Of a DNA stretch of 44,792 bases, positions 4,926 to 43,945 are shown piece after piece. The translations under genes and the position numbers were made by a program. Numbering within the stretch: position 1 is the stretch's first letter; every line of letters starts with the position of its first letter. This stretch comes from Chloroflexota bacterium (GTDB lineage: Bacteria; Chloroflexota; Dehalococcoidia; SM23-28-2; JACOUE01): positions 1-44,792 of the forward strand of contig JACOUE010000014.1 in assembly GCA_016178045.1 (NCBI GenBank), written 5' to 3'. The notes beneath the pieces were generated by a model. It was not told where the DNA came from and ran no database searches. It saw nothing but the letters and a program-made list of their open reading frames with translations.

Positions 4926-7900
4926 ATGGCGGATAAGCCCTCCAAGGTCCTCATCATCGGCAGCGGGCCCATCGTCATCGGGCAGGCGGCGGAGTTCGAT
5001 TACTCCGGCTCGCAGGCCTGCCGCGCCCTGCGCGAAGAGGGCGTCCACACCGTCCTCGTCAACTCCAACCCCGCCACCATCATGACCGACGAGGGCATCG
5101 CCGACACCGTCTACGTCGAGCCCCTCACCGTCGAGGTCATCGCCCGCATCGTCGAGCGCGAGCGGCCGGACGGGCTGCTGCCCACTCTCGGCGGGCAGAC
5201 CGGCCTCAACCTAGCCGTCGGCCTGGCCGACGCCGGAGTCCTCCAGCAGTACGGCCTCCGCTCCCTGGGCACGCCTATCGAGACGATCCGCAAGGCGGAG
5301 GACCGGGAACTGTTCAAGCAGCTGCTGGACGACATCGGTGAGCCGCGCCCGGAGAGCGAGACCGTCACCGGCATCGAGGACGCCCGCCGCGTCGCCCGCG
5401 AGCTGGGGCTGCCCCTGGTGGTGCGCCCCGCCTACACGCTCGGCGGGACCGGCGGCGGCGTGGCCCACACCTTCGACGAGCTGGAGCACATCGTGCGAGG
5501 CGGGCTGACGGCATCGCCCATCGGCCAGGTGTTGCTGGAGCGCTGCCTGCTGGGCTGGAAGGAGATCGAGTACGAGGTGATGCGGGACGCCGCCGACAAC
5601 TGCATCACCGTCTGCAACATGGAGAACATCGATCCCATGGGCGTGCACACCGGCGACAGCATCGTGGTGGCCCCCAGCCAGACCCTGAGCGATAAAGAGT
5701 ATCAGATGCTCCGTTCCGCCAGCCTCAAGATCATCCGCGCCCTGGGCATCGAGGGCGGCTGCAACATCCAGTTCGCCCTGGCGCCCCGCAAGGAGATCGC
5801 AGAGTGGTCGCTTTCCCCCGACGGCCGCCCGCCCTACTACGTCATCGAGGTCAACCCCCGCGTTTCCCGCAGCTCGGCGCTGGCCTCCAAGGCCACCGGC
5901 TACCCCATCGCCCGCGTCGCCGCCAAGATCGCCGTGGGCAAGCGCCTGGACGAGATCCCCAACCGCGTCACCGGCAAGACCACCGCCGCCTTCGAGCCGG
6001 CCCTGGACTACGTGGTGGTGAAGATACCGCGCTGGCCCTTCGACAAGTTCCCCCTGGGCGAACGCCGCACCGGCACCCAGATGAAGGCCACGGGCGAGGT
6101 CATGGCCACCGACCGCACCTTCGAGGCCGCCCTCCAGAAGGCCGTGCGCTCCCTGGAGGTGGGCGGCCGCTCCCTGCTCTGGGAGGACGCTGCCTGGCGG
6201 GACGTCGACCCCCGCGAGTACGTCTCGGAGCCGACGGACCAGCGGCTGTGGGCGGTCATGGCCGCGCTGCGGCGGGGCGCCACGCCCTCGGAGCTGGCGA
6301 AGCTGTCCGCCATCGACCCCTGGTTCCTGGAGAAGATGGCCGGCCTGGTGCAGATGGAGCAGCGCCTCCTCTCCGAGCCGCTGACGCCGGAGTTGCTGCG
6401 ACAGGCCAAGCGCCTGGGCTTTCCCGACGAGGCCATCGCCACCCTGGGCGACCGTCTCCCCGAGCAGGTGCGCCAGCTCCGGCTAGAGGCGGGCGTCCGC
6501 CCCGCCTACAAGATGGTCGACACCTGCGCGGCGGAGTTCGAGGCGGAGACCCCCTACTTCTACAGCACCTACGAGGAGGAGAACGAAGCGACGCCCCTGG
6601 CCGGGCAAAAGGCCCTGGTCATCGGCAGCGGGCCCATCCGCATCGGCCAGGGGATCGAGTTCGACTACTGCTCGGTGCACGCGGCCTGGGCCCTCCAGGA
6701 GGCGGGCGTCAAGGCGATCATGGCCAACTCCAACCCCGAGACCGTCTCCACCGACTTCGACACCAGCGACCGCCTCTACTTCGAGCCGCTCGACGAGGAG
6801 GCGGCCCGCGACCTGCTCGAGAACGAAGGCGCATACGAGAACGGCGTGGAGCCGCCAAGCATCGTCCAGTTCGGGGGCCAGACGGCCATCAACCTGGCCG
6901 GGCCCCTGGCCCGGGCCAACCTCCCCATCCTGGGCTCCAGCGCCGAGGCGATCGACGTCGCGGAGGACCGGGCCCGGTTCGAGGAGCTGCTCGAGCGCCT
7001 GGGCCTGCCCCAGCCGCCGGGCGCCGCCGTGCACACCGTGGAGGAGGCCCTCCAGACGGCGGGGCTCATCGGCTACCCGGTTCTGGTCCGCCCCAGCTAC
7101 GTGCTGGGCGGGCGGGCCATGGAGATCGTGCAGAACCCGCGTGACCTCGTGCGCTACGTCAGCGAGGCCGTCGCCACCTCGGGGGGCGCGACGGGGAAGC
7201 CTATCCTTATCGATAAGTACCTGGAGGGCATCGAGGCCGAGGCGGACGCCATCTGCGACCCCGAGGACGTCCTCATCCCCGGCCTCATGCAGCACATCGA
7301 GCGCGCCGGCGTCCACTCCGGCGACTCCATGGCCGTCTACCCCGCCATCGGCCTCACGCAGTCGGAAGTCAACACCATCGTCGACTACACGCAGCGGCTG
7401 GGCCTTGCCCTGAACGTACGCGGCCTGATGAACGTGCAGTTCGTCATCATGCGCCCAGACGGGCGGTCGTCCGACCGGGACGGCGGCCCCTCCACCGTCT
7501 ACGTGCTGGAGGTGAACCCGCGGGCCAGCCGCACCGTCCCCTTCATATCGAAAGTGACCGGCGTCCCCATGGTGCGGCTCGCCATCAACGTCATGCTGGG
7601 CAAGAGCCTGCGCGAGCTGGGGTACGAGGGCGGCCTCCGGCCCCGGCAGAGCCTCATCGCCGTCAAAGCGCCCGTTTTCTCGATGTCGAAGCTGACAGGC
7701 GTCGACACCTACCTGGGGCCGGAGATGAAGTCGACCGGCGAGGTAATGGGCGTCGACTACACGTTCGAGTCGGCCCTGGCCAAGGCCCTCCAGGCCGCCG
7801 ACCTGGCCCTGCCCAGCCGAGGCTCCGTCCTCCTCTCCCTCGCCGACCGTACGAAGGCGGAAGCCTTGCCCGTCATCCGCCACCTGGGGAAGGCGGGCTA

Positions 7901-34608: not shown

Positions 34609-35483
34609 CCGTGCAGGAGGCGCTCCGTCAGGGCGCGCGCCTCCTTTCCGCCGAAGGCGGAAGCGACGAAGCGAACCTGGAGGCGGAGCTCCTCCTGGGC
34701 CACGCCCTCGGCCTCGACCGCGCCCACCTCTACCAGCACCTCCGCGAACCGTTGACCCCCGAGCAGCAATCCGCCTACGACGGCCTCCTGGAGCGCCGCC
34801 GCCGGCACGAGCCGGCCGCCTACATCACCGGCCGGCGCGAGTTCTACGGCCTGGACCTGGAGGTGACGCCGGCGGCCATGATCCCCCGGCCGGAGACGGA
34901 GCTGCTCGTCGAACTGGCGCTCGACTTCGCAGGGTCAAGGGTCAGGGGCCAAGGGTCAGGGGTCTCGGGTTCCGAGTTTCGGGTGGTGGACGTGGGCGTG
35001 GGCTGCGGCGCCATCGCCCTGGCCCTGGCCGCGAACCTGCCGCCCGAGGTCCGCGTCGTCGGTATCGACGTCTCCGCTGAAGCCCTCGCCCTGGCCCGGC
35101 GCAACGCCGAGCGCCTGGGCCTCGGCGGCCGGCTGCTGCTCGTGGAGGGTGACCTGCTGGGCCCGCTCGCCTCGCCGGTGGCCGTTATCGTGGGGAACCT
35201 ACCCTACGTGCGGACCGCCGACTGGGAGGCGGCGCCGCCCGAGATCCGCTGCTTCGAGCCGCGCCGCGCCCTCGACGGCGGCCCCGACGGCCTCCGCCTC
35301 ATCGAGCGGCTGCTGCGCCAGGCGCCCGCCTACCTCAAGCCCGCCGGCGCCCTCGTCCTGGAGATCGGCGACAAGCAAGGCACGGCGGCAAGCGCCCTAG
35401 CCGGGCAGGCCTTCCCGCGCGCCCAGGTGCGGGCAGAGCGGGACCTATCGGGGTTGGATCGCGTTCTGGTGGTGGGGACGTAG
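34605..35483 (+). CDS. prmC: Release-factor glutamine methyltransferase
   Basis: 292 residues. PrmC methylates the GGQ glutamine of RF1/RF2, and here it overlaps prfA by four bases. The N-terminal helical domain (EALRQGARLLSAEGGSDEANLEAELLL) is followed by the SAM site VVDVGVGCGAIALALA and the active-site GNLPYVRT, where Leu takes the place of the usual second residue of NPPY. Between ALDFAG and VVDVG, about 14 residues (VRGQGSGVSGSEF) come from GGGTCAGG repeats (34931-34984) read in frame. Confidence 0.9.
   Translation: MTVQEALRQGARLLSAEGGSDEANLEAELLLGHALGLDRAHLYQHLREPLTPEQQSAYDGLLERRRRHEPAAYITGRREFYGLDLEVTPAAMIPRPETELLVELALDFAGSRVRGQGSGVSGSEFRVVDVGVGCGAIALALAANLPPEVRVVGIDVSAEALALARRNAERLGLGGRLLLVEGDLLGPLASPVAVIVGNLPYVRTADWEAAPPEIRCFEPRRALDGGPDGLRLIERLLRQAPAYLKPAGALVLEIGDKQGTAASALAGQAFPRAQVRAERDLSGLDRVLVVGT
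34931..34984. repeat. AGGGTCAGGGG repeat tract inside prmC
   Basis: GGGTCAAGGGTCAGGGGCCA and then AAGGGTCAGGGGTC, translated between the two PrmC domains. Confidence 0.6.
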
Positions 35484-35716: not shown

Positions 35717-36648
35717 TTAGCGGGACAGCTGGTAGACCTTGCCCTCGGTCTTGATGGAGGGCGCCACCACCAGCTCCGTATCGTGGAACTCGGCGATAGT
35801 CTGGGCGCCGCAGACGCCCATGCTCGTCCGGACCCCAGCGCCTTGCAGATGTCGCCGCCGGTGCGCATGCCGCCGTCCGTGACGACGGGGACGTAGCGGC
35901 CCGTCTCCCGGTAGTGCTGGTCGCGGGCGGCGGCGCAGTCGATGGTCGCCGTAACCTGGGGCACGCCGACGCCCAGCACCTCGCGCGAAGTGCAGATGGC
36001 GCCGGGGCCCACGCCGACCAGGATCGCCGCAATGCCGGTCTCCATTAGCTCTTTGGCGGCGTCGTAGGTGACCGTGTTGCCGACCATCACCGGCACCTTG
36101 ATCGTCTCGACCAGGTCCTCGAAGATGAGGCCGCGCAGGGAGCGCGAGATGTGGCGGGCGGTGGTGACGGTGGACTGGACGACGAAGATGTCGGCCCCGG
36201 CCTCCACGGCCGCGGGGGCGAGCCGCTTGGTGGTGGCGGGCGTGGCTGAGACGGCGCAGACGGCGCCGCCCTGCTTGATCGCCCGCACCCGCTCGCCGAT
36301 CAGGTTCTCACGGACGGGCGCGGCGTAGGCTTTCTGAATGAGGGCCGCAGATTCTCCGTCGGAGGCAGCGGTGATCTCCGCGATGACGGCGTCGGTGTCG
36401 TCGTACCGGGTCTGGAGCCCCTCGAGGTTCATGACCGCCAGGCCGCCCATCTCTCCGAAGGCGGCCGCGAAGCGGGGGTCGACCACGGCGTCGAGGGCGG
36501 CGGCCAGCACGGGCAGCTCGAAGGTGTACGGCGGTATGCTGAAGTGGACGTCCGTCAGCTCCGGGTTCACAGTGACGGACCCGGGGACGATGGCTACGTC
36601 GTCGAAGCCGTAGGCGGGCCGGAGTTCCTTATAGGATGCCAGAGCCAT
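35717..36648 (-). pseudogene. GuaB3-like IMP dehydrogenase-related protein, internal deletion
   Basis: From the ATG at 36648 about 271 residues are intact: [61 protein letters not shown] (Cys loop) and VVTDGGMRTGGDICKAL. Near 35835 the frame changes and resumes as RTSMGVCGAQTIAEFHD and APSIKTEGKVYQLSR with stop at 35717. The 65-70 residues that normally follow (GADAVM region, flap) are gone. The family turns over guanine nucleotides or is regulatory; this copy would be inactive. An assembly error is possible. Confidence 0.8.
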
Positions 36649-42406: not shown

Positions 42407-42862
42407 TCAGTCGCTCCTCTCGGCGCGGCCGTAGCGGGTCAGGGTTGTCCGGGGCTTCCTGACCTTCTTGGCCTTGACGGTGCGGAAGCCGTCCTTGTCC
42501 ACGCCCCACCTGTCGCGGTAGCGCAGGTCGAGGACCTCCGTCATGCGCTTGTCTTGTTCGTGCTTGATGTCGCCGCGGGCGGGCTTCCGCCTGGGCTCGG
42601 GCTCGGCCAGCTCCGGGTGCTCGTAGAACTTCATGCGCTTGGGCAGGGTCTTCACTTCCTTGCCCAGGTGCCAGTAGGTGCCCCTGTCGGGCAGGCGCCG
42701 GGGGTAGCCGTCGCGGTAGGTGAAGGCCATGAAGTTGGACATGATGCGTTTCCCGTCGCGGTTGCACTGGGGGCAGGGCATGGCCAGGGACGCCTCGCGG
42801 ATGGGGCGGAACGCCTCGAAGACGCCGTGGCAGTGGTCGCAGTAGTACTCGTAGAGGGGCAT
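42407..42862 (-). CDS. FmdB-like zinc-ribbon protein with a basic C-terminal extension
   Basis: 151 residues. MPLYEYYCDHCHGVFEAF and MPCPQCNRDGKRIM give the C-x2-C...C-x2-C zinc ribbon of the FmdB family. After the ribbon comes a longer, basic, unrelated part (LPKRMKFYEHPEL, KVRKPRTTLTRYGR). Function is unknown; FmdB members are often called putative regulators. It follows a closely similar paralogue (42879-43160) and is probably a duplicate that gained a tail. Confidence 0.8.
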   Translation of the reverse strand: MPLYEYYCDHCHGVFEAFRPIREASLAMPCPQCNRDGKRIMSNFMAFTYRDGYPRRLPDRGTYWHLGKEVKTLPKRMKFYEHPELAEPEPRRKPARGDIKHEQDKRMTEVLDLRYRDRWGVDKDGFRTVKAKKVRKPRTTLTRYGRAERSD

Positions 42863-42878
42863 CGTAGGGGCGGACCTC

Positions 42879-43160
42879 CTATCGTTTCGAGCGCTTCTTC
42901 CCTGACTCCTTCGCCTTGCCCTTGACCGGGGCGACGGTCTTTTCGAACTTGGGCTCACGGTTGTAGAGGGGGCGCTGGTGGTAGGGGACCCGCTGGGCAT
43001 ACCCCTGGCCCCAGGACATGGCCGAGAATGAAGTGGGCATGATCCTCGGCGCCTCACCGCCGCAGTCAGGGCACACACCCGCCAGCTCCGACTCCCGCAC
43101 GGGCCGGAGCATCTCGAACAGCCTATCGCAGCGCTCGCAGTAGTACTCGTACAGCGGCAT
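42879..43160 (-). CDS. FmdB-family zinc-ribbon protein
   Basis: 93 residues with PLYEYYCERCDRLFEML and GVCPDCGGEAPRIM, the same four-Cys ribbon. The C-terminal tail is basic (KGKAKESGKKRSKR). The stop of recO lies two bases away from its start region, so it may be translated as part of the recO-containing operon. Role unknown. Confidence 0.82.
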   Translation of the reverse strand: MPLYEYYCERCDRLFEMLRPVRESELAGVCPDCGGEAPRIMPTSFSAMSWGQGYAQRVPYHQRPLYNREPKFEKTVAPVKGKAKESGKKRSKR

Positions 43161-43162
43161 CG

Positions 43163-43945
43163 CTAGACCTCGATCGTCTCGAACAGGGCGTCCCGCCGCA
43201 GCCGCTCGATGAAGGCGGCGGCGTTCACGTCCCGCTCCAGCACGTGCACGATGTAGCTCCGCAGGTGCCGTTCGATCTCCTGCCCCAGCTCCGGCGGGAC
43301 CTGTAACCGCGCCATGTCATTGTAGGAACCCCGCTGGAGCAGCCGCATCACCTTCAGCGCGTTCACCGACAGCGGCCGGGGGCCGGCCGTCCCGCCGGCG
43401 CACTCGGGGCAGAGGGTACCGCCGGCGCCCGGCGAGAAGTAGTTGGTGACCGGTTGTAGCTGTCGCTCGCAGCCCAGGCAGCGGGCCAGCTCCGGCCGGA
43501 AGCCGCTGTGCTCCAGCAGCCGCATCTCAAAATAGCGCAGGACGGAGTCGGCGTCGAGCGCCTGGGCGAGCCGCCGCAGCGTGTCCAGGAGCAGGTGGTA
43601 GGTGGCGTGGCTCTCTACGTGCTCCGGCACGAAGCGGTCGACGAGCTCCGCGGCGTAGAGGGCGCGGCTGAGCCGCTGGAGGTCCTCGCGGATGACGGCG
43701 AAGCTCTCCAGGGCCTGGCAGCCGGCGATCACCTCCATCGAGCGGCCTCGCGCAAGCTGCACCATGCAGCGGGTCAGGGGCTGGAGGTGGCCGGACATGC
43801 GACTGGTGGTCTTGCGTACGCCCTTGGCCTTGGCGTCCAGCTTGCCGTAGGTGGGCGTGTACAGGGTGAGGATGCGATCCGCCTCCCCCAGCTTGCGCTG
43901 GCGCAGGACGATAGCCTCTGTCTTGAACAGCCGCGGTAGCGTCAT
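43163..43945 (-). CDS. recO: DNA repair protein RecO
   Basis: 260 residues. The N-terminal OB fold begins FKTEAIVLRQRKLGEADRI; the helical part has LSRALYAAELVDRFVPEHV; the zinc site is CLGCERQLQPV with GGTLCPECAGG. RecO helps load RecA on single-stranded DNA with RecR, whose gene is the next upstream one. Length and domains are normal. Confidence 0.93.
   Translation of the reverse strand: MTLPRLFKTEAIVLRQRKLGEADRILTLYTPTYGKLDAKAKGVRKTTSRMSGHLQPLTRCMVQLARGRSMEVIAGCQALESFAVIREDLQRLSRALYAAELVDRFVPEHVESHATYHLLLDTLRRLAQALDADSVLRYFEMRLLEHSGFRPELARCLGCERQLQPVTNYFSPGAGGTLCPECAGGTAGPRPLSVNALKVMRLLQRGSYNDMARLQVPPELGQEIERHLRSYIVHVLERDVNAAAFIERLRRDALFETIEV

Follow-up and report, generated by a model that had tools for sequence, protein, structure and literature searches.

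Local assembly errors left uncurated in metagenome-assembled genomes put incomplete or incorrect protein-coding genes into public databases, as set out in the parts of Chen et al. 2020 (PMC7111523) on which we draw, and the portions of Cooley and Wright 2024 (PMC11017572) considered here link an excess of pseudogenes to assembler, platform and coverage. Here, we analysed a contig of a Chloroflexota bacterium (JACOUE010000014.1; the window, 44,792 nucleotides, is the whole contig C71 of the draft genome G000, GCA_016178045.1, which comprises 2.03 Mb in 85 contigs and is 89.8% complete). In this contig guaB3, a conserved gene of purine synthesis that encodes a GuaB3 family inosine monophosphate (IMP) dehydrogenase-related protein (TIGR01304), is interrupted by the sharp loss of an internal block. 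We conclude, at a probability of roughly 0.93, that the break is a local assembly error and part of a draft-wide fault, because sharp losses of this kind recur in housekeeping genes of the draft that are unrelated to one another, whereas the corresponding stretches of its relatives show none. The likeness to the errors in the cited parts of Chen et al. would lie in wrong sequence at places that lack read support, whereas the sizes (74-251 bp) and the clustered distribution of the losses are features of the present draft. With the artefactual pseudogenes treated in the consulted portions of Cooley and Wright, our case would share broken genes as products of assembly; those, however, are frameshifts and internal stops, whereas the present draft shows block losses.

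The first piece of guaB3 (window 36648-35836, minus strand, 271 aa) matched TIGR01304 over positions 7-273 of 365 in a profile search (E 4.5e-86) and retains the catalytic-loop region, with a 13-residue stretch that we take to be the catalytic cysteine loop. Its score of 289.4 bits lies under the family cut-off of 342.1 bits, as expected because the end of the gene is missing, and the homology is clear. On the minus strand, KAL closes the first frame at base 35836, where GVRTSMG... opens a second frame that is terminated by a stop at 35717; the gene's last 39 codons, GVRTSMGVCGAQTIAEFHDTELVVAPSIKTEGKVYQLSR (35836-35720), therefore stand in another frame than the first piece, and taken alone they matched no Pfam or NCBIfam model at E 0.001. 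For comparison, we scanned bacterial and archaeal genomes for relatives of the GuaB3 query and retained the best 80 of the 207 stretches that encode one; all 80 loci are titled Chloroflexota, and about half (40/80) are titled Dehalococcoidia or a group within it. Exactly 204 bp separate the two pieces in 78 of the 78 relative loci that show both, while in the remaining two of the 80 (L013 and L069) the stored sequence stops before or within the second piece. The window copy therefore lacks 205 bp, i.e. 68 codons and one base, and the exact base of the join is ambiguous over about 10 nt. Both pieces and their exact spacing in relatives identify the gene as a GuaB3 family member, which differs from the family in lacking 68 of about 378 codons and in changing frame. 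A preliminary description made from the sequence alone had already read KAL into GVRTSMG at 35825-35845 and put the loss at about 65-70 codons, which agrees with these results. Since sequence is missing rather than added, an insertion or a programmed bypass was ruled out.

The same description had pointed to a similar loss 3 kb away, and this lies in hisS, the gene of histidyl-tRNA synthetase (HisRS). In the 45 relative loci holding both hisS pieces, these are 177 bp apart in 35, 180 bp in 8, 195 bp in one and 201 bp in one, so that the window gene lacks about 178 bp; comparisons with reference frames (n=49) put the loss at 178 bp in 41, 181 bp in 6 and 160 bp in 2. The junctions in guaB3 and hisS are about 3,044 bp apart, and both losses equal 1 modulo 3.

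Are such breaks restricted to this contig? The window and 79 further stretches of the draft (1,349,504 bases, 418,384 of them aligned) were scanned with open frames from the 80 relative loci and from 1.2 Mb of the related chromosome G001. A loss was scored when two pieces of more than 35% identity lay on the same strand with a gap or overlap below 60 nt at the junction and 50-900 bp missing; the junctions were read from the translations. Nine sharp losses were found under this rule, all of them frame-changing (9/9), on the five contigs C71, C61, C22, C12 and C30 (Table 1), and reference frames from G001 by themselves gave these nine again (382,211 aligned bases). Each of the seven losses outside the window is backed by 1 to 7 comparisons, and its sharp frame change can be read in the translations. 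The systematic assembly fault that had been suspected is thus strongly supported, except for its restriction to this part of the contig, given seven more losses on four other contigs.

The controls separate the draft from its relatives. When the 80 relative loci served as subject, with G001 and seven of the loci supplying the queries, no loss satisfied the rule in 589,898 aligned bases; the four rows obtained measured 1, 31, 324 and -1 bp, three of them too short and the 324-bp row combining a 78-nt overlap with a multiple of three. Nine losses in 418,384 against none in 589,898 aligned bases correspond to a conditional probability of about 4e-4. G001 as subject gave four rows under the rule in 362,269 aligned bases, of which those of 168 and 183 bp are multiples of three, and those of 92 and 112 bp have queries that look like antisense shadow frames. 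Among simulated blunt cuts, 465 of 500 were recovered, with a size error between -12 and +6 bases (5-95%). The losses of the draft hence recur at its unrelated loci and not in the relatives, and they ignore both reading frame and gene essentiality: they are without exception out of frame and strike its only GuaB3 and its only hisS match.

Several further signals of the scan were kept apart from the nine. The 92-bp row in L225 was left out since its two alignments have 152 nt in common, and small frame changes (1-25 bp) in L100, L112, L134, L136, L144, L201, L205, L224, L226 and at about window 40.35 kb remained uncounted. The one in L134 (around position 5400, on contig C6) is a change of about 2 nt within a gene that is presumably cyclase-like, seen in 8 comparisons, and may be either a small error or a real frameshift. 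Apparent gains in L112 (in a gene we assume to be rpoB-like), L146 (presumably that of a flavin mononucleotide (FMN)-enzyme-like protein) and window 42536-43187 were not taken as faults because they look like natural variation, and neither was a gain in L205 (-163), whose query looks like an antisense frame; L223 shows a further apparent gain (-47).

The joins themselves carry a signature. Across the nine joins, the median overlap between the homologies of the two sides is 22 nt, compared with 1 nt for the 465 simulated blunt cuts, an excess that is significant for the nine together (mean, P 0.004; median, P 0.006); a short stretch therefore seems to be common to the two ends. In guaB3, the left frame may continue as GSG (the S occurs in 24 of 78 relatives, the second G in 78/78 and the first G in 0/78), and at the hisS join a stretch of up to about 16 nt could be compatible with either side; the exact length of microhomology is unreadable without the true sequence. 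A drop-out linked to guanine-plus-cytosine (GC) content was considered as well, and the joins lie at somewhat raised GC (percentiles 0.32-0.90, 7/9 above the median), a tendency too weak for a conclusion.

Such an overlap would also be expected from real deletions in the living genome, produced by slippage or recombination between short direct repeats, in which case guaB3, hisS and the other genes would be pseudogenes. In the same direction point the clustering of the losses, nine on 5 of 72 stretches where 8.3 would be expected at random (P 0.001), and the disturbance of guaA, the next enzyme of the pathway. Against this stand the identity of the genes hit, among them sufS, a nifS/iscS-like gene and the draft's sole GuaB3 and sole hisS match, and the constancy of the guaB3 spacing in all 78 informative relatives. 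Moreover, the reading frame is open in each of the four pieces of guaB3 and hisS, their identity to the relative L006 is 71-82%, and the further decay expected of a pseudogene was not seen in them. We therefore regard real deletions as very improbable. The shared mutational process between short repeats that the preliminary description had offered is not supported as an event in the organism, with all nine losses out of frame, the only hisS match and GuaB3 affected and no counterpart in the 80 loci; its short repeats are partly borne out by the excess of overlap.

Could other copies make the broken genes dispensable? The draft holds a single GuaB3 match, the broken copy, and canonical IMP dehydrogenase (TIGR01302) gave no match over the cut-off in the draft or in six relatives (7/7 genomes, G000-G006), so that GuaB3 appears to be the sole IMP dehydrogenase in these Chloroflexota. 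Similarly, hisS has a strong match in the draft only once, as two broken halves, the other matches being partial and weaker; the next-best, on C83 (profile positions 3-290, 176 bits, under the cut-off), is probably a HisZ-like paralogue. The missing parts, which might have been present elsewhere on the contigs, did not turn up: with the pieces taken from L006 and in searches run without a positive control, the best hit to the lost GuaB3 piece in the rest of the draft was not a real match (E 0.2, 27% identity), and the lost hisS piece gave none. A second intact guaB3 or hisS in the draft was accordingly rejected, as neither profile nor lost-piece searches produced one. In the part of the source considered here, guaB3 is reported to be essential in the cyanobacterium Synechococcus elongatus (PMC13273366). 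For purine synthesis in Dehalococcoidia, our literature search brought up nothing to the point.

The guaA gene on C61 is disturbed in a different manner. It matches its family over the cut-off on the minus strand, and part of the family also matches the adjacent opposite strand. There (L141:18521-18822, about 58.5-58.8 kb of C61) a 123-nt inverted arm is 78% complementary (96/123) to the guaA that follows, with 56 nt between the two. By our definition of inverted pairs (at least 60 nt, at least 72%, within 1.2 kb) this pair stands alone in 1.35 Mb of the draft, G001 and the relative loci contain no such pair over 2.17 Mb, and the inverted piece is probably a chimera with a related sequence. 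The arm, only 78% identical to its partner, suggests that the arms stem from different genomes, and by extension that mixed populations may have given rise to the breaks, the assembly having captured, in place of the intact majority, either a minority strain that truly carries the deletion or a chimera of two related strains. The two sides of each break, however, are about equally close to L006 (76 and 82% in guaB3, 78 and 71% in hisS), and many independent strain deletions of similar size would be required, which makes this explanation slightly less probable still than real deletions. The lowest probability of all falls to a real excision process in a Dehalococcoidia-related lineage that would remove blocks of 70-250 bp at short shared sequences, the working genes being restored or supplied otherwise.

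We favour an assembly fault, in which the assembler, or a read-merging or gap-closing step, would have fused positions separated by about 70-250 bp in the true sequence and omitted the intervening bases, apparently at places where both ends share a short sequence. Candidate steps include an erroneous merging of read pairs, a false overlap between contig ends that read pairs bridge, and a collapsed loop of the assembly graph, among which we make no choice. Two elements of this account are inferred, namely the lack of read support for the joins and the software step behind them. On this reading both guaB3 and hisS are almost certainly intact in the organism.

A number of points weigh against an assembly fault. 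The genome set searched holds no other member of the draft's genus or family, so that a near-identical intact copy was lacking for comparison, and the joins are as yet not directly refuted by reads, coverage or a second assembly. The control loci span the guaB3 neighbourhood of the relatives rather than whole genomes. The rule favours frame-changing losses, as in-frame ones are often absorbed into a single alignment, and two in-frame candidates were seen and left uncounted, one in a CaiB-like gene (L104, 165 bp) and one in FtsH (L223, 120-129 bp). Most single overlaps at the joins fall within the simulated range (5th percentile -40 nt), one of them, at -55, lying at its 1st percentile, and only the nine jointly differ clearly. 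To these are added the missing positive control of the lost-piece searches and the fact that guaA still passes its family cut-off despite the inverted arm. Finally, two weak Pfam IMPDH matches occur in the draft, on C63 (29 bits) and C5 (21 bits, or 33 with neighbours), both over Pfam's low cut-off; both are probably other enzymes, and the one on C63 is by its appearance presumably a protein of the nitronate-monooxygenase type.

Between the two breaks lie prfA and prmC (Table 1), and a frame-changing loss in prmC was not found in scans against the reference frames. The nearby relA, rsmI, metallo-beta-lactamase-like gene and metG show their domains. In window 29-44.8 kb, which is well covered by relatives, a loss against many references occurs in guaB3 and hisS only, other rows being gains or resting on one or two references each, such as those of 10-183 bp at window 40.3-41.3 kb; the left 29 kb is thinly covered by references, and breaks there could escape detection.

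Table 1. Gene pieces, joins and intervening genes in the window, and the sharp losses located across the draft
Feature	Contig	Window position	Strand	Basis
guaB3, first 271 codons, ending ...DGGMRTGGDICKAL	C71	35836..36648	-	TIGR01304; Pfam IMPDH PF00478
Join in guaB3, 205 bp lost	C71	35827..35836	-	Spacing in relatives; column-by-column comparison
guaB3, last 39 codons and stop, other frame	C71	35717..35836	-	tblastn match in 78/80 relative loci, best 82% identity
hisS, first part, ending ...LQLNSIGD(A)	C71	32280..32792	+	TIGR00442 positions 1-167/406, E 6.2e-67
Join in hisS, ~178 bp lost	C71	32789..32804	+	Spacing in relatives; reference-frame comparisons
hisS, second part, other frame, with anticodon-binding domain	C71	32792..33364	+	TIGR00442 positions 227-405/406, E 5.6e-57; PF03129
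prfA, intact	C71	33517..34608	+	PCRF and RF-1 domains at full profile length
prmC, one open frame	C71	34605..35483	+	PrmC_N and methyltransferase domains
Formate-dehydrogenase-alpha/NuoG-like gene, 212 bp lost	C61			NCBIfam match of relative's copy, below cut-off
NifS/IscS-like desulfurase gene, 74 bp lost	C61			NCBIfam match of relative's copy, below cut-off
SufS gene, ~172 bp lost	C61			NCBIfam match of relative's copy, over cut-off
ThiL gene, ~157 bp lost	C22			NCBIfam match of relative's copy, over cut-off
Acyl-CoA dehydrogenase gene, ~100 bp lost	C22			NCBIfam match of relative's copy, below cut-off
Fumarylacetoacetate-hydrolase-like gene, 251 bp lost	C12			NCBIfam match of relative's copy, below cut-off
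Acetyl-CoA acetyltransferase gene, 181 bp lost	C30			NCBIfam match of relative's copy, below cut-off

The window also contains short repeats of its own. Half-sites of a short dispersed palindrome (CCTGCCTGCCGGCAGGCAGG type) stand at window 34583, 35507, 37547 and 42365; 33 of them were counted in 1.35 Mb of the draft, compared with 7 in 1.2 Mb of G001 and 5 in 0.97 Mb of relative loci, a four- to fivefold difference in frequency. Two copies fall within genes, one at the end of prfA and one beside a stretch of rsmI that is missing from relatives, and the element recalls the palindromic elements known to insert in frame in other bacteria. Within its open frame, prmC holds a tandem repeat with a 14-base unit (GGGCCAAGGGTCAG, window 34932-34962), whose core motif was counted 5 times in 1.35 Mb of the draft, compared with a single occurrence in the relative loci and none in G001. 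At window 42536-43187 (minus strand) lie two adjacent paralogous zinc-ribbon genes (MPLYEYYC...), which we take to be FmdB-like.

Out-of-frame losses of 70-250 bp in conserved genes that are absent from relatives offer a simple, read-free test for faulty drafts. For the organism itself, the break in guaB3 is almost certainly not a real feature, and conclusions drawn from the draft, for instance that the lineage has no HisRS, is unable to make guanosine monophosphate (GMP) or has lost SufS, would be wrong.
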